From: Coprinellus micaceus
Lineage: Eukaryota; Basidiomycota; Agaricomycetes; Agaricales; Psathyrellaceae
Assembly (NCBI GenBank): GCA_951394405.1
Contig: OX596336.1
Location: 1,302,001-1,366,000, forward strand
Reading direction: 5' to 3'
Length of the DNA stretch: 64,000 nt
Positions 7,785 to 61,494 of this stretch are shown here, in pieces. Position 1 is the first letter of the stretch; each line of letters starts with the position of its first letter. Below the pieces are notes generated by a model. It was not told where the DNA came from. It made no database searches and saw nothing but the letters and a program-made list of their open reading frames with translations. A program made the translations under genes and the position numbers.

Positions 7785-10256
7785 TCACCTCCTCACTGCC
7801 AGTATCCCTTTCATCTCCGAAATATTCCCCAACGACCCTGGCCTCGATGCAGGTCCCTTCCCCTTCCCATCGGTCACCGAATTCCTCCTACTCCCAGTAC
7901 CCCCACCCCCACTCCCACTCCCCGAACCACCTTGCTGGTCCGACGACCACTTAATCGAACTCGATCTTGACGGCGTCTGCGGAGTCCTCCCTCCCGACGG
8001 CAGTCCCACCGTTGTCGAAGTCCACATCGCCGAGTTTATCCCCAAACTCGAGCCGGCGCTTGACTGACTAGCGCTAGCTCCGTTCAACTTCTCGACCATC
8101 TCATCGCCAGAGGCGGCGGTGTACTCGACGATCGATGCGTGCGTGTTGGCGGACAAAGTTGTCCGAATTGACGCAAGTTCTCTGCTGCACAGCAGGATCC
8201 TCGCCTCCTTGGGGAGTTTAGGTAAGGCTTCCTCAAGAACTGGGAGGAGTTCATCGAGTTGAGCAGGTGTACATTGGTCGATGTCGTCAAGGATGACGAC
8301 CACAGGCTCTGGCCGGCGGAAGACAGCATGAACTTCCTCGCCGTCCTTCGAGCTGTCTACCTTTTTCTTTGTGTTTGGGATAGCCTGCAAGGGGCCCACA
8401 ACGAGCTTATCGAATACCTCCCCGAAACTCCGCTGGTCGAGGTCGCCGGCATTCTTCGCAGCACTGGCAACAGGTACCGCGAGACCGTCAACGTACGCAG
8501 CGAGCTGGAAGGCGATAGTCCGAGCCATACACGCCAAGCTAGGCGGCTCGTCGTTCGAGTCAGCGGAGTGGTTGTTAAATGTGAAGTACACTGTCGGTAC
8601 ACCCACTCGTCCAAAGGCGTCGATGAGTGAGGTAGTCAACTGAGTCTTGCCACAGCCAGCTGGGCCAGTGATCCAAAGAAGACGTTTAAGCTCTGCAAAA
8701 GAGGAGAGGAGTGCCCAAGATGAAACATCCTGCACGGTGGCAAGGGAGTGTCTCGTCGAGAGAGATAGAGGAAGCTTTGTGGGCTCCGTTTCTAGAGATG
8801 GTTGTAGGTCGTTGCGGAGCGTAGGCCGAGAATCTACATGTATCCGCAGTCTTGAGACAAACACGCCGTTGCGTAGAGGACAGATGCGTACCATTCAGTA
8901 TCTTCCGCAAGGCCGCCCTCTCCTGGAAGACGAGGTTCCGCGAGCCAAGTGGGCTTCCACTCGTCTGTGGGTACTCATCAAATCGCGCCTTGGCTGACCG
9001 GAGCTCCTTGACGACTTGAAGTTCATTCACTGCACGGAACAGTTAGTGGGGCTGCAATTGAGTTAATGTCAAAGGGTGGGCGCTTACTCAGAGCAGGCTT
9101 CCTCAGGCATCTCTCAAGGAACCTGGCGGAACTGGAGATCTCGAGGCAGACTTTACCGTAGAGTTGTATGCTCAAGTCCGCGGAAAGATCGGTGGTTACA
9201 AAGCGGATCTGAGATAGGGCAGCCCTGTATGAGGAGAGCAAGTCGGTGACGAGCCGCGAATCTTCCTTGAAGTCGGCATCGAAGAGCTAAGGGCACTGTG
9301 AGTTAGGCAGGGGTGCCAGTGGACCGAAGAACCGAGGGGCCTTACGGGTGTGATTGAGGCAAGTAAACCAGAAGCCATGTCGATGAAAGTCTTCGAGCTC
9401 TGTTAAGAAACCTGATGAGTAGATGACTGATAACCCTTCCGGGGATTGCTTACAGTTGAACCCGGAATGTCGGCGCTTAGCATCCTCAATTCTTTGTCAA
9501 GCTTTAGAAGCTCAGCCCCGCGGTCTTTTCGCTGCTTGGCCTTCCAGTCGCTTTCGACCTGAGCGTGAAATTCGCGCCTCTCCTTGTCGGACATGTAGTC
9601 GAACAGGGCCAGAACGAGAGAGGCCTCATTTGAGGGATCTCCGCGTAAGCTTAGCGGCACAGCAAAAGCTATACAATATACGCTTAGAATGAAGTTAATC
9701 GGCCACCCAAACAGTTGGCTTACTTGGAGCTGTTCCATCGCCGTTCTGCGCGGCAGCTTCATCTCGCAGCCGCAACAGCTCACTGACGGTGTAGGCCTTT
9801 GACAACGCGAGCTTCGCGGGCCGCAGAAAAGGCGCAGTGGAATCGAGCACGACAAACGTGAGCTTGGTATCAAGGGTCACCCCCTTCAAACTGAGGGAAT
9901 TATGTTTGATCAGCGTAGCCCAACGAGGCGAGGATGGGCCGCTCACCGTTCGGTGTTCTCAAACCATTGGGGATCCTTGGCTTTCTGATATGCAGTCGCC
10001 AAGGACTTGGCTTTCTTGCCGTCCCTAGTCGCGTAGCATGCGTAGGCGGCCGCATTTGGTACCCCGCCGTTCTTTCGACGAAGATTGGAACACTGGTGGA
10101 CTGTACGAAGGTGGTTATCGATCCGCCAAGGTTAGAGGGGAAGAGGGCTTACATTTGAACTGAATGCCGCCTCCAATTCTAAAGAGGGCTCAACTGTCAG
10201 CCACTCACGACATGCTTGAAGACACAAGGAACTCACTCTGAGTGAGGAAGGCCCAT
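7785..10256 (-). CDS. Compact NACHT-type STAND NTPase with C2-like N-terminus
   Basis: Signal-transduction P-loop ATPases of this class work in fungi in non-self recognition or programmed cell death. The proposed start at 10256 gives MGLPHSELEAAFSSN, followed by in-frame exons: one with AAAYACYATRDGKKAKSLA and DPQWFENTE, reminiscent of a C2 domain; LKGVTLDTKLTFVVLDSTAP; a helical region (YMSDKERREFHAQVESDWKA); KTFIDMASGLLASITP; then the ATPase. The Walker A is GPAGCGKTQ and the Walker B is VVVILDDIDQC, followed by ARILLCSRELASI. The chain then becomes Ser/Gly-rich and ends without a winged helix or sensor repeats. A TATA-like GTATATATAC lies near 10334-10344, about 80 nt before the start. The first two small exons are the least certain part. 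Confidence 0.72.
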
Positions 10257-23263: not shown

Positions 23264-24535
23264 ATGGCCACTGCAGACACTGGCATGCAACAGCAAGAGC
23301 GCGGGAATTGGCGTGATATGCCGTCAGCGTCAGCCGCGACGTCGAGCGCCACTCCTTCCGCAACCACCACCACGCCAACCACGTTACCCCAGCCCAGTCG
23401 AAATGACGCGCCGAAACGCCTCACCAAAGAAGGCACGGCGATTCTGGAAGGTATCGTAATACTTTGGCCTCACCAGTTCAAGACATAATGTCTTATCTTT
23501 GCTAGATTTTATGCTAGAACATGGGGTCGACTACACCCTCACTACAAGTGAAGCAAAGCGGCTTTGTCAGAAGATCAAGGTACGCGAGGACTATGTGCAC
23601 ATATTTCCGTGGAATAGATCTGAATGGGCTCCGTCCAGGAACACACAGCGTACGAGGCGATAACCCCAGAGAAAGTCAGGCAATGGTTTTATCGACGACG
23701 AAGGGAAATCAAGGAGAAGCAGGCCAAAGAGAAACATGCCTCGGCACTTTCTCAACCCCAGCTCAGTTCTTCATCAAGCCAACCCAAACTGCCAAGTATT
23801 AGCGCCACGGGCGCTTCAGTAAGCCAGGCGTTCGGCAACTTTGGGCAATGGCTTGCCCCGAAATTAACGCAGGCCCAGATCGAGACACTTGAAGCCATGA
23901 GGAGCACTACGGCCGACGGACGCATTGATGACCATCTCGTTCGGTCGTTGGCGCAAAGCTGGGACCTTCCAAAAAGCGTCGTGGATAACTACTTGCGCGA
24001 GCATCCGCCGGCGCGCGTCCGCGAGCCCCTGACGCCTGTGTCCCCGACGTTTCCTTATCGGCCTTCCGGAGCGGGAGGAGCGCCGGGTAAGGTTGACCAT
24101 CGTCTGCCAACGCCTGCGGAGACTGCTACCTCGCCGTCAATGTCACATGCGGGAGATGCCTTCCCGCCCTTCGATGAGCCGTCTCACACCGACATTCTGC
24201 CGCCAAAAGAATCTCGCTCGTTGCCCCCACCTCTAGGTATCCCTCGCCAGGAAGTTTCAGATGACATGGTGCGTGGTTTTCTCCTCTCGTGTGTGGCACG
24301 TGTTTGCTCATATTGTTGCGTCGCTCTGTAGGATGTTGACCCGAGTCCACCCTCCACTTCCCCACCTGCTGATGCCTCACCGACGAACGTACTCTTCAGA
24401 GCAATTGTACAGGGTATACGAGGAGTCGTCGACGAGCCGCCCTGTCAGCCAGTCAGACCAACGAACGCGGTCGAGTTTCAAGCGCTCTGGTCGCCGATGC
24501 CTTGTCTCTCCGAGGCCTTGGCGAAGATTCCTTGA
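23264..24535 (+). CDS. Homeodomain-like protein A (first of four paralogs)
   Basis: Exons 23264-23450, 23506-23579, 23639-24268 and 24332-24535 join in frame to 364 aa. After a Ser/Thr/Pro-rich start, a homeodomain spans residues about 50-115: KRLTKEGTAILEDFMLEHG, then TTSEAKRLCQKIK, then ITPEKVRQWFYRRRREIKEK. The helix-3 motif is W-F-Y-R-R-R, so position 51, nearly always Asn in homeodomains, is Arg. A second homeodomain-like stretch lies at about 163-215 (LTQAQIETLEAMRS, SLAQSWDLPKSVVDNYLREH), followed by a Pro-rich region and a tail containing NAVEFQALWS. Predicted role: nuclear DNA-binding regulator. An alternative is a highly diverged mating-type homeodomain factor, but no mip flank gene is present here. 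Confidence 0.8.
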
Positions 24536-25564
24536 CCACCTTCTGCGCCTCTTCTGCTCTACTTTCCCTCCTCCCCTTGTTTTCGACGCACCCACATTCT
24601 CCCTTCCCATCGCCTGGACCATTCATACCCATTATCGCATATTTCTTCGTTTTCGCTACTGAGCATTATTGCCCCGTTGTACACGCACTCGTCTTCTACC
24701 CCGCACGCCGCATTCATCGTATACCATGCACAACGAACCCTATTCCTCATGTTTAATCCGCATTTCATTAAATTATCGCGCAGCAAGCCGTTATCGCTCT
24801 TCTTTCCTCCGCCGTGAATTTTTACTGTATCTTGTAATCGTAATTCTCTTTGACGGTAGTGTTGCAGCACCCCTTCGCCGTCCATTTGTATGGTGTTTCG
24901 TTTCGTCCACTTGTCCCACCGATTTTAGTGCCATTCTCTTATTTACGTCTACATGCCCTCCCACTCCACTCCCGATTCCTCTTTACTAAAAGCCATGTGG
25001 TTCCAAGACTCTTCACAGCCGCGTCCACAGCATTGACGACCCCAAAGTGAGTCCTCGTTGTCAGTCTCATAGAGTCATGTTTAAATGGACAGTGGCGAGG
25101 TATGTTCATCTATTAATCGGCGCAGTACTAGCGGGACTGACCCCGAAAGTGTAGAAGGATCACCGCGATAGGCAACTCTGACTAGTCTCACGGGGGTTCC
25201 TAGGCCTCATGCCCTCGCCTTGCCCTTCCTTATGTCTGCCGATTGTGCTTGAGGAGGGCGAGAGGCTTCGGCGACTTCCAGGGAAGCTAAGAACAGGAAA
25301 AACCCACCGTCGTTCTGGTGTGCCTTCGGACTAGCTTCTGGTGCTCGAGTGTCGATGACAGGACGACGGCTAAGCCTGTCAAATTTTTATAGCTACCATT
25401 GGCTCATATAAAGAGGGGTCCAGAGGAACACCCTATCCACCGCCACATACCCTTCACTCAAATAGCACTTCACAGCAGCTGGCGACCCAAGTGCGTAACT
25501 CGTCCCTTCCTCTTTGTTCGTTCGACGCTGATCGCTTCCCCCCGAACAGGCATTGCCTTAGCAT
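24536..25564. other. Intergenic between homeodomain genes A and B
   Basis: A pyrimidine-rich 3' region (24540-25000) is followed by the promoter of gene B. No separate gene seen. Confidence 0.4.
25406..25413 (+). promoter_or_regulatory. TATA element, CCAAT box and leader intron of gene B
   Basis: ATATAAAG at 25406-25413 is preceded by CCATTGG (25397-25402 region), an inverted CCAAT box. No ATG occurs between the TATA and 25565. A GTGCGT at 25491 and a CAG ending at 25549 suggest an intron in the 5' leader. Confidence 0.5.
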
Positions 25565-27892
25565 ATGGAACTAGTGGCGACAGCCTTAGGCGCTGCAATA
25601 CTAACTAATGGCGGCGCCTATCACCCTCTAATGACACCTCTAAATCCCAACGGCACTGTTCGCCATCGACTCCCAGAGACGGGGGCCACGATACTCAGAC
25701 GTACGACGATTACCGTAGCAATGACTCAGCTAACTAGCCGATTAGAATTCGCCGTTCGACATCGTCGACCACCTACGTCACAAGAAACGCATGAGCTCGT
25801 TTGCAGATCAAGGTCGGGCGATATTCTGTATGCCCGAACGTGGCCGTATCTGACACTCTGATTCCCTGCACAGCGCGAGATTGGCTACGACACCAGTTTT
25901 AATGCTGTAAAAGTATGGTTCTACCGAAGACGCGACGACCTGGATTTGAAAACGGCAGTTGACCTGCGGGGTTGGTCGTCACGCCGGAACCCACCCAAGC
26001 CACCCCCCAAGAGATCATCTGCGCCAAAGATAATGCCTGGACGCATTGCCGTCTCGTCGCGTCGGACTCCTGTGCGTCTTAACCAGGCCTCGAGACAGAC
26101 CCCCAGCCTTGCGGATCAGCCATTAAACAACAGTAGTCCCCAAGTCCTCAGTACCATTCCTGCGAAACGAAAGATGGGTGGATGTGGCCGACCGTTTCCC
26201 GCCGAAGGCGCCACTATCCTGAGGAGTACGTTCTGATCGGAGCACGGGTGGCACCACTCAGGTTGCTAACACCCTCGACTTCAGGGTTCGGAATCAAATA
26301 CGGGCGTTATCCATCGGGAAAGGAGGCAGATGTAATGGTGGCTCAAGTTCGGGTGAGTGGACTCTATACAAACCTAGGCATCACCTGACATGACGCACCA
26401 ACAGGATAAGACTGGGTACAACACGACTGTCGGAACAGTCAAGTACTGGTTTTACAAACATCGGGCTGCCCTAAATTTGAAGACGTTCATGGACTTCACG
26501 AGGGCAATGCGCTTCCGAGGCATCACCCCGCTCCCAACCCAGATGTCTCAGGGCACAATAACTATATCGTCCTCGAATCCAGCACGCATTTTGAATTATT
26601 TGAACTCTGGGGGCCAAAGCACATCCCCTCGCCACGGTCGTATCCGACGACAAGCACCGACTACCTCGCCCGTGAGACCGAACATTGGCGGGAACAGGCG
26701 ACCATACCCAAAGGAAACCATTGCAATTTTCGAGGGTAAGCTCATGGGGAGACGGTCGTTGACTACGCCGTGGAGCCTAACCGAATCTCACCTTCAGAGT
26801 TTGCCGTCGATTACGGCCGTTATCCGTCCTCTGTTGAGGCAAGTGACCTCGTTGAACGGGCAAGGGTGGGTGATCCTATTCAGCTCGGGGCTCAAGCATC
26901 GGCTCACAATGCCATTCAAAACAGGAAGACACCGGATACCGAACGACGGTCAAATCAGTCAAGTTCTGGTTCTACAAACATCGAATCAAGTTCAACTTGA
27001 AGACCCTGGCGGACTCCAGTAGGGCACTTCGCTTCTCAGGAGCCACCGACATCCAGATCGAGGAACTCGATCGGAGGGAGATCCCCAACAACAGTATCAC
27101 AACCGACGTCCATCCCCCATGTCCTACCACCTTGAAAGAGCCCTCTCTGATTATCTCAACCCCAGCTTCAGTCCGCTCCCATCCCCATCTACCTACCTCG
27201 ACCATTCTGCCTGCACCTCCTCTCTCCCAGGCTCAGATGGAAGTTCTGAGGGCCCTCCAAGCATCCAGCATCCAGCAAGTCAACGATTCGGTGTTGTCCA
27301 CATGCGCACAAAGCTGGGCTGTGGATAAACGTTTGATTACAGAATGGTTGAGGGAGAATCAGTCCGCATACAGGCCTCCGACGCCAACTTCCCCGCCAGC
27401 GTTCACCCCGATTTCGTTCTCAATACCCCTCAGGCCCAATGAAGTCGTCGTCCACGGAGCCGTCCCCCAGTGTGCCATTTTTCTTACTAATACGTCGGCC
27501 CAATCCTCGTCCCAAGTGGCACGAGGTATTGAGGGAACCGACGAGGATGATCTGACAGACACGATGCTTTTCGACCAATTCGTACACGGGTGGTCTGCGG
27601 AGCCCCCAGAGATAGAGATGACGGATGTCGTGAGCACGTTCCCTAAGCGGGAGACTCCTGCGTGAAATCGTCTGACTTTGATACGACCTAGGAAACGCCA
27701 GCAGGCACTCAACTTCCTCCAATGAAAGAGCCAGCGATGGACCCTTTCATGAAGGGACTCGTTGAGGCTCTCCGAGAGGCAATCGAACCACCTCCTTCAC
27801 CACCCGCGAAACCAGCAAATGCCAAAGAGTTCCAAGTTTCCTGGCCCGCTATCACCTCGATAGACGTTCTGCATAGAACACAAGCCCCTTGA
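25565..27892 (+). CDS. Homeodomain-like protein B with three homeodomain modules, first module damaged
   Basis: Proposed exons are 25565-25700, 25746-25813, 25874-26225, 26285-26352, 26405-26735, 26798-26865, 26925-27629 and 27692-27892. Three homeodomain modules follow one another, with helix 3 at about 25916 (W-F-Y-R-R-R), 26447 (W-F-Y-K-H-R) and 26967 (W-F-Y-K-H-R). Modules 2 and 3 are intact: FGIKYGRYPSGKEADVMVAQ and FAVDYGRYPSSVEASDLVER. In module 1, exon 2 should end after AGG at 25813, as in all paralogs, but the next bases are TCGGGC, so no GT donor exists there; the GT one base earlier breaks frame. Either module 1 is dead or translation starts later, for example at ATG 26033, giving 521 aa with two modules. 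The second conserved module (LSQAQMEVLRALQASS, QSWAVDKRLITEWLREN) and the tail NAKEFQVSWP follow. Confidence 0.72.
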
Positions 27893-28470
27893 CCAAGTTG
27901 ACTTTCGAGTCCGAACCCTGTTCATAGATAGCCATGCTCTCCTTGTCGGTTCCCCAATGTCATCTGATCTACCCCTGTCGGTAAGCGATATGAAGCTAAT
28001 CGAATGGTGGAATGGTGGAGGTATGTATGAATAACCGGCGAGACTCACACCCTATTTCCGAACGCGCTTAGCCTCGTGCCTTCTTCTACCCTCCTTTACG
28101 TTTCCCGCAGCCAATCTGAGGACGACCCCGGCTTTCAACGACTTCCATTGGTTCTTGAATCAGGAAGGCCCTCCCGTCCTTGTGGTGTCGGTCGGATAAG
28201 CTTTGCTATTCAGATTCGGGAGTCGCTGACAAAATGTCAGCCAGTGGGCCAGAACCCTGCTAAGTCACATATAAGGAGACGGATCTCAAAATCGCCCGAC
28301 TTAGCTGAAGATACCCCTCCACAGTCACCAGTGCGTCCAATCATACCTCCCCTACCAGTGTTTCATGAGCCCTGATTACCTCTTTTTCGTTGCAAGCATA
28401 TCTTCACATCGCCCGCCCTGGAGGTTAGGCGTCCTAGCGCTTACTCGCCTCCATCCCTCCGGATTCTACG
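27893..28470. other. Intergenic between homeodomain genes B and C, with a TATA-like element
   Basis: About 580 bp. An ATATAAGG lies near 28269-28276, roughly 200 nt before the gene C start. No other feature seen. Confidence 0.4.
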
Positions 28471-30011
28471 ATGCAACAACGGCTTCCAGATAGCGGTGCG
28501 GCCATTCTGAAACGTAAATACAGTCACTGGCGGCGCGCCTCAATTGGCTGACCATTATGCCAGAGTTTGCCGATACGTACCATCGCGTACCAACATCGCA
28601 GGAAACGCGTGAGCTAGCTACGCAGATCACAGTAAGCTCCGCAATCTTTTCAATCAGATGAGGTCAGTCCTAATTTTTTTGTGTAGCAGGATACTGCGTA
28701 CGAAGTCACGTACAAGTCCGTCAAGAAGTGGTTCTATCGAAGGCGGGATAGCTTGAACTTGGAAGTCGCCGGGATACAGGGGAGGAAACTGAGTCATAGA
28801 ATGTCTGCTTCAGGTTCAAAAGGAGGGCGGGTGTTGCAGAAGATGGCACGAATACAGTCGGGAGACATCGTTGTGTCACCTCATGAGGCTAACAAGACAA
28901 TAGGTAATGGAGGTGGCCGGGGGATTCCCGCTGAGGGCATTGCCGTTCTCAAGAGTAAGCCAATTCGCGGTCAGGAACCTCGGTACTTAATGACCACCTA
29001 ACCCGCACAAAAAATTAGAGTTCGCCACCGATTATGGTCATTACCCAACCGCCGCTGAAAAGAAAGAGCTTGTAGAGCAGGTTTGGGTGAGTACTTCTTG
29101 TCGATGGCCTGAATAAGTTATTCAAGGTAGATGCCTCTTAACAGACGAAGTCCGGATTCCAGACGACTGTTGAGACTCTGAAACGGTGGTTCTCCGACCA
29201 TCGGGACGAATTCAGCTTGAAGACCGTGGTTGATTCCCGGAGAGAGTTGCTCTTGAAAGGCACCACCTCCGCTCAGTCCAAGCAGGCTTCGAGAAACCCC
29301 AAGAAGGGCAGGCTGACCATCAGACTTCCCCCTCGACCACTCTCATCCCCACAGCACAAGCTGCACACTATCTCGATTGTCTCCTCTGCCGAGCCTTCGA
29401 CGTCCAAACTCCAGGACCACCCATTGTCGTCCGCTCACATCAAGGAAGCGCTTCAAATGCGCAGTGGCCAATTTCCCGAAGAGTGTGTTATAACTGCATG
29501 CGCTGAAAGCCGGGCCGTCAATAAGCACCTGATCGAAGATTGGTTACAAGGCGACCAGTCCGACTACGCACCTCCCGCACCGACCTCGCCTTGTAAATCC
29601 ACTCCAATTTCATTCCTGACCCCTCCTATCGATAGGACAGCCCATGGACAAGCCCACCTCGCGATGCCTCGCCAGTCCCATAGTGCGACACTGTCCGACC
29701 AGCCTACTCTCGGACGTGTGCCAGACGATACGGAAATGGAAGCTATGGTAAGTATGGTTCCAGTAGGCAAGAGGTTATCCACTGACTCGGGCTCTCAGGG
29801 AACGTCCGCACAACTGGCCGGAGATGCCATGGTTACTTCGCTCACGGACTCGGCGCCAGCAACAGACCTCTTTGTTAGTGCGCTCGCCGAGGCTGTTCGA
29901 AAGTCTATCAGCAGCCCTCCTATCTCGAACGTGAAACCGATGGAATGCACGGAGTTTAAGGCTTTGTGGCCCTCGTTCACACATCTAGCAGGAGCCTTGG
30001 GCGCTATGTGA
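28471..30011 (+). CDS. Homeodomain-like protein C with two homeodomain modules
   Basis: Exons 28471-28513, 28564-28631, 28690-28954, 29019-29086, 29145-29747 and 29799-30011 join in frame to 419 aa. Module 1 begins almost at the start codon (MQQRLPDSGAAILK, FADTYHRVPTSQETRELATQ) with helix 3 W-F-Y-R-R-R at 28729. Module 2 (FATDYGHYPTAAEKKELVEQ) has W-F-S-D-H-R at 29187, so position 51 is Asp, an unusual acidic replacement. The second conserved module follows (LSSAHIKEALQMRS, NKHLIEDWLQGDQS), then a Pro-rich YAPPAPTSP, and the tail ends MECTEFKALWPSFTHLAGAL. Both module middle exons are 68 nt. Probably nuclear; the DNA-binding mode is uncertain. Confidence 0.8.
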
Positions 30012-30474
30012 ATTTCTTGTTGATAGCTGTGTGCCTCCAACCTATGGATCCCGATTCCCGGAAGTGCTGCACCCCTCAATTCTAGTTTCGATTAGTTGCT
30101 TGTCTAGATTGGCTCGGTGATGTGGTGGCAGGGCCCAGTCCCAGGTGTCGCCTTGCTCTAAAACACTGGACTCCATAGACTTGGAGGCTTCCTGCCTCAC
30201 AACACAGTGCAGTAGAGCAGCAAGGGTGGCATCTTGAAGTAAGTGCCTCTGCTCCAACTGAGAGCATCAAGGGGGAGGAGAAAGTGGAAGGGTGCTGGAG
30301 AGTTGCTGGAGAGAGGCCTATCAGGTTCGCGTCGGGAGCGGTAGCGCCATCACAATATTTCCTTTTCTCCTCGTCCAAATTTGGACCAGTTGAGGAAGCG
30401 AAATGAAAAACGATGGTGTTGAGAATCGAGGAGCACAATCCAGTTGACATGTCCAAGATCCCATACATGTCAAA

Positions 30475-30775
30475 GGGCCTATTCCAAATGTCCGGGAAGC
30501 TAGGTGTACGCCTATGCCTACAGCCAAAATTCATCCAATTCCAGGTCCCATAGGCGGTCCGCATCGCCTAGGTGCACGCCTTGTGTACGCCTAGCCACAA
30601 ATGGCCTATTCAGAATGTCTGGCTACCTAGGTGCAGACCTAGAATTGGGCAGGGAAATTGTGGCTAGGTGTACACCTAGGCGATGCAGACCGCCTATGGG
30701 ACCTGGAATTTGATGAATTTTGGCTGTAGGCATAGGCATACACCTACTGGCTTCCTGGACATTCCGAATAGCCCC
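30475..30775. repeat. Large near-palindromic inverted repeat (foldback or MITE-like element)
   Basis: The left arm (30475-30600) and right arm (30658-30775) are reverse complements over about 120 nt with only a few mismatches and two small gaps. The arms begin and end GGGCCTATTCC...GGAATAGCCCC. The 57-nt loop carries a third, partial copy of the arm terminus (30603-30632, GGCCTATTCAGAATGTCTGG). The motif CTAGGTGTACRCCTAG recurs in both arms. I see no convincing target-site duplication and no coding capacity. A non-autonomous foldback element is the best guess; a hairpin small-RNA precursor is the alternative. Confidence 0.8.
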
Positions 30776-31420
30776 AAATCCTTTTACCGTCTAGCCTTGA
30801 CTCAGGGTCGGTGTTAATCCAATCTTTACCAGGCCCTGACTCAGAGCCTAGTACCTACATTCAATATATTCTCTGTGAATCATATTCAGGTGTGACAGCT
30901 GGTCCCCAGAACCCCAAATTCCAATACCGTGCTTCAAGTGCCAGTGGGGATAGATTACAGATCCGAGGAGATACATGCATGGTACTTTTTTGACCTTACG
31001 GCGCAAGCCTACAACAAAAGGGCAGCCCAAATTTACTGAATATTGATTGACTGATGGGAGATTGCCAGCTTTTGCCCTCTTTAACTTTCATTTCAGCTTT
31101 TCCAGAAAGCACGGGGTCTGCACAGCGAGACCTCATGTTCAACGGTCAAGTTCTCTTACATCCTTAGAGCCTGAGTTAAAGGCCTGCGATAGAATCGGGT
31201 ATGGTGCGGCAGGCTTGATGTCCCATAAATGGAAGGCCGATGCCACTCCAAGTCCCAATTAGCTCCCACTGGCGGTGCTGTGTCTGTGCAGAAGGCCTCT
31301 CGGAGTCCTATGAAAGAAGATTATACTGCCCCAAAGGTTCCCGTCCTGTCACAGCCCGTGTCGAACTGGCTTTCGTTCCTCACAACGGTGATTTGAGGAG
31401 TCGAGGTTGGATATCTACTG

Positions 31421-31430
31421 AATATAAAAG
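31421..31430 (+). promoter_or_regulatory. TATA element of homeodomain gene D
   Basis: AATATAAAAG lies about 130 nt before the start codon at 31553. Confidence 0.5.
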
Positions 31431-31552
31431 TTCAAAGGCACTATCCGTCGGACCTATGTGGTTCCATTCCTCCCAGCTTCTCTTGGCTATTAATTGCAAG
31501 CTAACGTCCCGCTCGTCACGTTTCATTCCACCCTCGATTTGCTCTTTGATCA

Positions 31553-32512
31553 ATGAATGAGGCTATAGGCGCCCGTCTGACTGCGGTCATTGATCAGGGC
31601 CCCTACGCCAACCCCGTCGTGCTGGTCCAACCCAAGAGTCTCTCGAAAACGGGGAAAATTAAGAGGCCCCGGCTTCCCAAACAAGCAGTCACTATTCTGA
31701 AAGGTACGTTGGCCAACCGTGGCAAATGTCGACCATGTTTCACTAAATTGATTCCTGCTGCCGTCTTAGAATTTGCCTCTACACACGGCCGGCGCCCAAC
31801 TTCGCAAGAAGCTCAGGCCCTTCTTGAGGAAGTCAAGGCGAGTGCTGGTTACCTTGGCCAACCGCGATAAATCTTACTCATTTGTACAGGGCATGACTGG
31901 GCACCAAACCAAACACGAGAACGTGATGGATTGGTTCTACCGAAACCGCGACCCACTAGGGCTGAAGGGCGATCCCAGCAAGGCCATGCAATATCGATTC
32001 AGGGTTAGCAAGAGGAGTGCATGTTCTGAGAGACCCTCCCTTGCCGGGCTTAGTACCCCCTTTCAGCTTGTTGAAGAGCGCGAGAATATTGAAGAATCGA
32101 CTCCAAGCAATCCCATATATTGGGAACATCGCCCTCTCGTCGTGAATGACAGAGTGAGTAGATTCAGCAGGAGTCTCATGCCTCAGGCCCTCTGACTGCA
32201 GCATATCCACAGGGGGCGGACATTGCACTAGTTGAGCCACCACTCGAGGAGCAGTTTCTGGACCCCGACTTCAACCTTGGAGCTTCCCTCAATGCTCTAC
32301 GAGGACCCGTCAACACCACTCCTGCCTCAACACCAGAAATGACATTTGGTGAAGAATTCGGAAGCCTATGGTCCGCACCGTCGCTAGATGGTTGGAATGG
32401 CCGTTTGGAGACTGAGAGTGTGCTCAACGGTTCTGCTCCGTTCACCCATTTCTGTTATCTTCACTGTGGATGCCTTCAAGTCAGTGACGCTGGACTCACC
32501 CATATATCATGA
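31553..32512 (+). CDS. Homeodomain-like protein D, short paralog with one module
   Basis: Exons 31553-31703, 31770-31837, 31890-32153 and 32213-32512 give 260 aa. The homeodomain reads RPRLPKQAVTILK, FASTHGRRPTSQEAQALLEE, then HENVMDWFYRNRDPLGLK, with helix 3 at 31932; position 51 is Arg. The middle exon is again 68 nt, but the following intron starts GCGAGT at 31838 and is therefore a GC-AG intron. The second homeodomain-like module of A, B and C is missing; the chain passes quickly to an acidic tail with GEEFGSLWSAPS, matching the shared tail motif. It ends 114 bp from the SWR1 stop codon, in convergent orientation. It may be a shortened regulator able to compete with the larger paralogs; this is inference. 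Confidence 0.75.
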
Positions 32513-59365: not shown

Positions 59366-61494
59366 TCACTCCCAATAACTCTCGAAGGAGGGTAGGCGCG
59401 CCTGGAACTTTCCAGCCATAGGCCTTGCAGGAATAGAGGATGTGACTCCGCCAATGCTTGCACTCTGGTGTGCAGTCGGATTGGTCAAGTTGGAGGCCGT
59501 TCTCGGAGTTGATTGTGCGAAACTACGTAGCAGTCGACTGTTAGCTGACCTTTCCAACAATAAATGAGTATCTGAGGCCTCTGTCCCTCACCTTTTCGTG
59601 GAAATAGTCAAAGAACAGGTTGACCCAGTATACCCAAGGATCGTGCGGAGAGGCGTCAGCGTTTGGGAAGGAGGTTTGAAAGTTCAAGGTGGTGATGTGC
59701 ATCGTCCATAGTCCTTGGGAGAGTGGGTCGCCTTTCGATACCCAACTAATGTATTGAGACAGAGGGACCTTCTCTCTGAATGTTCCAAGGAAATTCGCTA
59801 ATTCCGTCCCGGAGAGAGGGATAAAGGGTGTACGTGCTGGAGAAAACGCGTCAAGCACAAATTATTCAAGCAAAGAATTATGAGTCTCACCTTCGAATAC
59901 GCGTGCGATGCACGGCATGTAAAGATCTCGACTTGAGTTCAAAAATGCGCGATGGAAGCCCTCGCCACACCGGCTTGGGTCTTCCAGAAATTCGATCAGT
60001 GACTTGTGATACAGCTCAAAGGTAGATGATTGAGAGTTCTGGTGTTCAGGGGGCGATATCCGCATCAACGAGCCGAGGTTCTCAAAGATATGACTCTCCT
60101 GGCCTGGGTATCTTTGAAAAAGCTGTCGGAAGAAGAGGGATGGGAAACCAGATGCATGGGAGGCAAACCCCGGGAACGGGATCCGCACCTGCTGGTCGTC
60201 GTGCATGATGGCGATCCACTGGATTGCGAGAATGGGTTCGGGACTTGTTGAGAGGATATGGGTGTAGAGAGAATCCAACGCCGCGAAGGGATTGATTGGG
60301 GCATCTTGGTATCGTAGGGTCGTGACAAAATTGAACCTCAACTGGAGGGAGATACTTTCCGTCCGGAGGAAACGCACGACCGTCGCGGCGTAAATGAACT
60401 GGCCTGAAGCTGCATTCATCAGCCAGACAATGCTGTCCTTAGTAGGCCATGACGCTGGGAGGTTGTATCGACGACGAATGTCGGCAAAGCTTGACTCCAG
60501 GAAAAGGTGGATATCGGCATCGGGGAGGTACTTGTTGTTGAGGAAAAGCTGTTTGGTGAACCCACGTCCCTGAGTTGAGAAAAAGTTTTGAATGACGCGT
60601 TCAGGGCGGCTAGCGATGAGAATACGGAAGGGGAAATCCGGGTCCGTGGCAGCCTGTCGCAGGACTGAGAGGACCTCGACTTGGTCCCGATCATTCGCTT
60701 GACGAACGCTTTGCGTATCAAACTCCCGGTGGAGCTCTGCAGAGATCTCGTCCACGCCGTCGATGATGATGACTGGAGGGGACGGGGGAGGCTCGCATAG
60801 CCCCACAATGCTGGGGAATGCTCTGTGAAAGATCGCCCTCAATGACCAAGTACCGTCACCTCCGCCAGACTTTCTGGTCTCTCGCAACGGCTTCAGCACC
60901 AGGCCTTCCATCTGGCTGCCTAACCGCCTATTGAATAGACCAACATCGTCTTTCACTCCTGCTAAGATCCTGTCTCGGAGTGATTCATGTCCCGGGAGTT
61001 GAGCCAACTGGTGTGCGAGGGTAGCCACTAGACATTGCTTCGAGCTTATATTCGTTTCCATAGAGGATGACGAGAAGAAAAAGGCCGCAGCCAGGAGGCC
61101 CTTCGCCTTGCATATCTCCGCGATAGTCCCTGCGATGGCTGTCTTTCCCGAGCCCGCTGGGCCCGTGAGCCACATTATCTTGCTTGGCTGGTCGTCCCTG
61201 TCGCCTTTCGTGATCCAGCTCATGATGTCTTCCTGGACGGCCTTCCTTGTCTCTGGGTGGCATTTGGAAGCGTCGCACCGCTCAGCAGAGTCGTGGATAG
61301 CCCCAGGTGCTGACCGTAGGTATAGGGCCACAATAAGAGTACATATCAGTAGCATGCCATACTGTAATTGGGAAGGGAAAATCCTCACTCTCGCCAGGGG
61401 TGCGCGACGAGCCACTCCCATCATAAACCTGCGTGCTGGCATCTATGTTGAGTTGGTTCACGCTGAAGTGGTGGGCATTCTCGAGGATAGACAT
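59366..61494 (-). CDS. NACHT-type STAND NTPase
   Basis: The proposed start at 61494 gives MSILENAHHFSVNQLNIDAS. A phase-1 intron (donor GTGAGG near 61392) joins this to APGAIHDSAERCDASKCHPE, the standard entry of agaricomycete NACHT proteins. Then come VQEDIMSWIT, Walker A WLTGPAGSGKTAIAGTIAE, AAFFFSSSSMETN, Walker B PPVIIIDGVDEISAE, and FRILIASRPERVIQNFF. The region after the ATPase holds HLFLESSFADIRRRYNLP, SGQFIYAATVVRFLRT and ELYHKSLIEFLEDPSRC, typical of this family. Two more exons end SFESYWE at 59366-59368. No WD, ankyrin or TPR repeats follow. These proteins are linked to heterokaryon incompatibility and defence. The hydrophobic run at about 61320-61360 is read as intron. Confidence 0.83.

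Follow-up and report, generated by a model that had tools for sequence, protein, structure and literature searches.

A tandem array of four genes encoding divergent homeodomain modules that lack Asn51

What do four look-alike genes, standing in a row on one strand, encode, and do their products act on DNA? The genes lie in a stretch of 64,000 nucleotides (C3:1302001-1366000, hereafter the window) of a 50.3-Mb genome assembled in 17 contigs. A preliminary description, made from the sequence alone, proposed four consecutive plus-strand genes with 1, 3, 2, and 1 homeodomain-like modules, followed by a second helical unit and an EFxxLW-type tail, and read them as a lineage-specific regulatory family. 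Spliced gene models bore out the strand, the tandem arrangement, and the module counts. Both profile comparison and predicted fold identify the modules as homeodomains, none of which has Asn51. The answer that we modestly favor is a lineage-restricted family of divergent homeodomain proteins acting as nuclear transcription regulators.

Homeodomain identity was assessed with profiles and with predicted structures. The profile searches suggested in the preliminary description gave a divided result: in PDB, homeodomains made up 28 of the 36 matches listed (best E value, 0.001), with TALE domains nearest, whereas no module reached the Pfam cut-off. A profile of the modules scored against homeodomain profiles at a level reached by 0 of 100 shuffles. 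When single modules were compared with 250 real segments, the score of gene 3 module a was reached by none and that of the gene 1 module by three. PF00046 matched three of nine single modules at an E value of 10 or better (best, 0.002). Structural matches to homeodomains were also found. Models of two Coprinellus micaceus relatives, P0001 (of gene 1) and P0002 (of gene 3), were used; a three-helix homeodomain fold was predicted, and the P0002 model superposed on homeodomains at about 1 Å. The top Foldseek match was the DUX4 double homeodomain, and plain Foldseek with the P0001 model gave no match. Nothing clear was found in a viral structure library, where the best match was a sigma factor (E value, 0.005; probability, 0.51; template modeling [TM] score, about 0.1) and the lower matches included two viral homeobox proteins (E values, 0.2 and 1.9).

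Trp48, Phe49, and Arg53 were present in all seven modules, and helix 3 has WF with an Arg four places past the Phe. Asn51, the main base-contacting residue of homeodomains and close to invariant, was present in none; position 51 is Arg in four modules, Lys in two, and Asp in one. The charge of helix 3 is +4 to +6 in gene 1, gene 2 b, gene 2 c, and gene 3 a, and +2 in gene 2 a. Helix 2 is predicted to have 15 residues in both modules of the P0002 model, compared with about 10 in a classical homeodomain, and about six extra residues lie between helices 2 and 3 in every module except gene 2 a as modeled. In alignment with canonical sequences, the loop between helices 1 and 2 has two extra residues in six modules and four in gene 1, so that the three-residue extension of TALE domains was found in none of the seven.

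The gene models (Table 1) were spliced by hand with sister modules as a guide, and agreement among modules is thus partly built in. Frames are open across all 18 modeled introns. Of the common intron positions that had been proposed, nearly all stood: 13 of 14 module introns fall at the same two sites, one of phase 1 following helix 1 and one of phase 0 following helix 2, and in all four genes the final intron, which leads into the tail exon, is likewise of phase 0. Only gene 2 module a departs from this pattern: at its second intron, a donor at the sisters' site breaks the frame and 12 GT/GC-AG choices leave it open; the model used takes a weak GTTTGC donor and retains the sisters' acceptor. 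The gene 4 model includes one GC-AG intron. The common module order held for genes 1 to 3 and failed for gene 4, in which neither the spliced model nor a six-frame profile search of the window revealed a second unit. That search, run with profiles of the array's own modules, second units, and tails, recovered seven helix-3 exons (E value, 6.1e-16 or better; next match, 2.8), three second units (next match, 1.4), and four tails (next match, 0.51); the six frames yielded no other copy of any of the three.

Table 1. Features of the array and of the interval between genes 3 and 4 (positions in the window)
Feature	Position	Strand	Basis or remark
Gene 1: one homeodomain module, second unit, tail	23264..24535	+	364 aa, 4 exons, spliced model
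Gene 1 homeodomain module, WFYRRR	23411..23722	+	Spliced model, alignment, profile search
Gene 1 second unit (U2), homeodomain-like spacing	23855..24010	+	Alignment, profile and model comparison
Gene 1 tail exon, EFQALW	24332..24535	+	Spliced model, profile search
Gene 2: three homeodomain modules, second unit, tail	25565..27892	+	637 aa, 8 exons in model used
Gene 2 module a, WFYRRR; 12 frame-keeping choices for second intron	25661..25963	+	
Gene 2 module b, WFYKHR	26186..26494	+	Spliced model, alignment, profile search
Gene 2 module c, WFYKHR	26696..27014	+	Spliced model, alignment, profile search
Gene 2 second unit (U2)	27213..27371	+	Alignment, profile search
Gene 2 tail exon, EFQVSW	27692..27892	+	Spliced model, profile search
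Gene 3: two homeodomain modules, second unit, tail	28471..30011	+	420 aa, 6 exons, spliced model
Gene 3 module a, WFYRRR	28471..28776	+	P0002 relative modeled at predicted local distance difference test (pLDDT) 87-94, residues 11-60
Gene 3 module b, WFSDHR, neutral helix 3	28915..29234	+	Alignment; relative modeled in P0002
Gene 3 second unit (U2)	29415..29567	+	Alignment, profile comparison, P0002 model
Gene 3 tail exon, EFKALW	29799..30011	+	Spliced model, profile search
Gene 4: one homeodomain module and tail, no second unit	31553..32512	+	260 aa, 4 exons
Gene 4 homeodomain module, WFYRNR, neutral helix 3	31664..31979	+	Spliced model, profile search
Gene 4 tail exon, EFGSLW	32213..32512	+	Spliced model, profile search
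Palindromic repeat resembling a miniature inverted-repeat transposable element (MITE), between genes 3 and 4, outside genes	30501..30746	None	81-nt arms, 94% complementary

The second unit (U2) scored 28.8 against typical homeodomains (reached by 0 of 100 shuffles; shuffle maximum, 12.8) and 14.5 against the TALE profile (reached by 3 of 100). Against the array's own modules it scored 10.2, which 19 of 100 shuffles reached, and thus showed no likeness beyond shuffles. Taken singly, the units of gene 1, gene 2, gene 3, and C. micaceus were equaled by 0, 6, 9, and 9 of 250 real segments, respectively, and sequence searches with U2 in Pfam and PDB returned no homeodomain and nothing usable. This support, although mixed, is for U2 as a putative degenerate homeodomain whose recognition helix is not basic. 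In the tail, an amphipathic helix is joined by a short linker to E-F-x-x-[LS]-W; this arrangement ends all four genes as well as P0001 and two fragments from ENA, P0003 and P0004.

Relatives were sought among 5.8 billion proteins by a search that required common five-residue words and scored about 8000 candidates each time. At an E value of 0.001 or better, the gene 1 query matched P0001 alone. With gene 3, P0002 and P0003 were the two matches at 10 or better, and the profile search returned three proteins: P0001, P0002, and P0004. The only named relatives found were thus the C. micaceus proteins, for genes 1 and 3 (genes 2 and 4 were not searched alone), and UniRef labels both 'Homeobox domain-containing'. 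The genome accordingly appears to be that of an inkcap-like agaric, probably another Coprinellus. Because each entry gives 2,068,854 bp for its longest contig, P0001 and P0002 are probably linked as in the array. Within the genome, exons of genes 1 to 3 served as queries (gene 4, U2, and tails were not separate queries), and no convincing copy was found outside the window; the best matches were to single exons of genes 1, 2, and 3 (E values, 0.86, 0.10, and 1.0, respectively), and that to the gene 2 exon has two stops inside. Other fungal genomes, Coprinopsis and Psathyrella included, were reached via the protein database alone, and the titles and abstract beginnings listed in searches of the open-access literature contained no description of the family. 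These results support a family that is narrow at the sensitivity used, as the preliminary description had supposed, and distant relatives may have been missed.

Gene 1 and P0001 share 222 of 284 aligned residues, P0001 as annotated beginning inside helix 1 of a gene 1-type module. Gene 3 and P0002 share 208 of 345; the P0002 annotation agrees with our model in its start, both modules, and the second unit, and it stops before the tail. P0004 differs from gene 3 at one of 167 coding residues, and once more in an intron through which its frame reads, and probably represents another strain. Gene and module duplication, the proposed route of growth, is supported as the simplest reading because introns are common to the modules. 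The two modules of gene 3 pair one-to-one with their C. micaceus counterparts (ultrafast bootstrap values of 93 and 94, below the tool's mark of 95), and this duplication therefore probably predates the split from the C. micaceus lineage. The module tree does not give the order of duplications, since 0 of 6 inner branches reach the support mark and four are drawn open. The nonsynonymous proportion (pN) was below the synonymous proportion (pS) in all 21 module pairs, with synonymous distance (dS) saturated in seven, a pattern indicating that the modules diverged under purifying selection; it records old divergence and cannot show present constraint.

The regulatory role that we favor draws on fold and protein anatomy. 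Those modules whose helix 3 is strongly basic (gene 1, gene 2 b, gene 2 c, and gene 3 a) would use it to bind DNA, Arg or Lys at position 51 would confer a specificity unlike the usual TAAT core, and multi-module proteins could bring two or more readers to a site. The neutral second unit may pair proteins, the tail, with its amphipathic helix and FxxxW motif, may recruit the transcription machinery, and gene 4, whose helix 3 is neutral and which has no U2, might be a decoy or a decaying copy. Differences in helix 3 charge suggest a division of labor among modules. Several observations weigh against such a role. By the absence of Asn51, none of the modules qualifies as a classical DNA-binding homeodomain; helix 3 of both gene 3 b and gene 4 is neutral, and the equivalent part of U2 is neutral or acidic in all three genes that have one. 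Every module scores under the PF00046 gathering cut-off of 22.9, the highest score being 18.8 bits in gene 3, and the 18 matches to PF00046 in the genome all fall outside the window. Identity between gene 1 and its C. micaceus relative is nearly even across domains and linkers, at 75-85%. P0002 as annotated has no tail, the tail part of the P0001 model is of low confidence, and its putative activating function rests on a short motif with F-x-x-x-W spacing, similar to that in the p53 activation domain.

The same observations bear on the principal alternative, which we regard as possible though doubtful: that these are homeodomain-fold proteins that can no longer bind DNA on their own and instead work through contacts with other homeodomain proteins, either partnering them or competing with them. 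Asn51 is lacking throughout, and helix 3 is not basic in gene 3 b, in gene 4, or in any of the three U2 units, which accords with this alternative; there is precedent in the multi-homeodomain ZHX proteins, as PMC2893186 describes an altered fold in ZHX2 HD2 that disrupts the DNA site and forms a homodimer. Four of the seven modules nevertheless retain a strongly basic helix 3 together with Arg53, and among them is the most conserved domain of gene 3 (85% to C. micaceus).

It is unlikely that the array is a relic of duplicated regulator copies now decaying. Gene 2 module a has a sisters'-site donor that no longer keeps the frame, gene 4 combines a GC-AG intron with the absence of a second unit, a repeat is inserted between genes 3 and 4, and the pN/pS test addresses old divergence; against decay stand the 18 frame-open introns, pN below pS in every module pair, and the C. 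micaceus relatives of genes 1 and 3. We give very little credence to a second compatibility system, in which the array would act like mating-type homeodomain genes in self/non-self recognition. Mating alleles are highly polymorphic, whereas P0004, in a single comparison, is nearly identical to gene 3. The genes are clustered and their profiles are nearest to TALE domains, and proteins of homeodomain fold determine mating type in both fungi and Dictyostelium, according to PMC5580921. The genome's HD1-HD2 pairs, however, lie on C2 (C2:3289569-3296239) beside an M3 peptidase (mip1-like) gene (C2:3298413), the arrangement that PMC8305134 gives for agarics, and the array genes are tandem rather than divergent. 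As the homeodomain mating-type (MAT-A) locus itself the array, with four genes on one strand of C3 and no M3 peptidase match on that contig, was ruled out. Least credible is another helix-turn-helix family (HNH-associated repeat, Myb, or transposase type): PF18780 HNH_repeat matched gene 3 at E 0.001 against 0.0015 for Homeodomain, both below cut-off, and a Mos1 transposase was one of three chains compared with the P0001 model, but module by module HNH_repeat matched two of nine (best, 0.074) against three for PF00046, weak and inconsistent results on which that identity was dropped, and helix 3 and the P0002 superposition are those of homeodomains.

A more specific picture can be offered tentatively: the family may consist of Coprinellus-lineage readers of the array type, with three of its four genes encoding proteins of two to four units derived from homeodomains, Asn51 replaced by Arg or Lys, the recognition code rebuilt, and one unit per such protein now a pairing domain that does not bind DNA. 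Homeodomains are among the most constrained DNA-binding domains. Here Asn51 is lost in all seven copies, yet the modules multiplied and diverged under purifying selection, a natural experiment on recognition-code change. The Pfam cut-off misses these proteins, so other mushroom genomes may contain more such families than have been counted.

Frames flanking the array encode a HEAT-repeat protein, a mitochondrial carrier, an SNF2-family ATPase, and a protein kinase, and two minus-strand NACHT-type NTPase frames (NLR-like) lie one on each side (7788-8894 and 59865-61442). The palindromic repeat has partial matches at six more genome sites. Elsewhere in the genome, the homeodomain mating-type locus (C2:3289569-3299930) contains two HD1-HD2 pairs and the M3 peptidase gene, with one TAA in its unspliced match; both HD1 helices read WFLD, with Asp, not Asn, at position 51. 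On C13 (C13:153700-156583; L038:3200-6083), minus-strand tandem homeodomain frames include one in which a signal-peptide-like start (MRLFTSLALISTLFVSSTLLALGAPLPIS) runs openly into a homeodomain (25.9 bits, over the Pfam cut-off), and two neighbors have LVKRS directly before the homeodomain (36.6 bits, over the cut-off, and 16 bits, under it); these may possibly be secreted homeodomain proteins. On C5, C8, and C12 (L003, L004, and L005), a homeodomain frame is embedded in DNA that is 99.97-100% identical over at least 3.15 kb, and a second such pair on C7 (L002 and L006) is 97% identical; these homeodomain genes are possibly on mobile or recently copied segments.

Among known systems, TALE homeodomains (TGIF, PBX/EXD, MEIS, and basidiomycete HD1) come closest, sharing with the array the best PDB profile matches and a helix 1-2 loop longer than canonical. 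The TALE extension is three residues, whereas that of the array is two (four in gene 1), with about six extra residues between helices 2 and 3 in all modules but gene 2 a as modeled; the array also differs in having several modules in two of its proteins and tandem, not divergent, genes. The genome's TALE profile fits the array modules no better than a typical homeodomain profile does (27.8 versus 28.3). The HMBOX1/HOT1 and WUS homeodomains, unlike the array modules, retain the canonical recognition residue. Two or more homeodomains per protein also occur in the animal proteins DUX4 and ZHX1-3, and HOMEZ and ATBF1 are further examples. The array is fungal, has lost Asn51 in all modules, and has been found in one lineage only, and nothing suggests common descent with the animal arrangement. 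One homeodomain per protein, taken in the preliminary description as the usual fungal state, needs qualification, since an apparent plus-strand gene on C2 of the same genome (C2:3933496-3935000; L039:3496-5000) has three canonical homeodomains (WFQNKR, WFQNQR, and WFRNLR). Its WFQN/WFRN helices are unlike, and its helix 3 unrelated to, those of the array, and no EFxxLW tail was seen in the plus-strand frames listed for it, which were not spliced or searched further. In HD1 proteins, as in the array modules, the recognition motif is poorly conserved, according to PMC8305134. The two HD1 sequences of this genome resemble the array in lacking Asn51, with Asp in its place. Dictyostelium MatA/MatB offer a further parallel: as PMC5580921 describes them, they have a divergent homeodomain-like fold recognized by structure, as in the array, and they differ from it in being 107-residue, single-domain proteins that set mating type.
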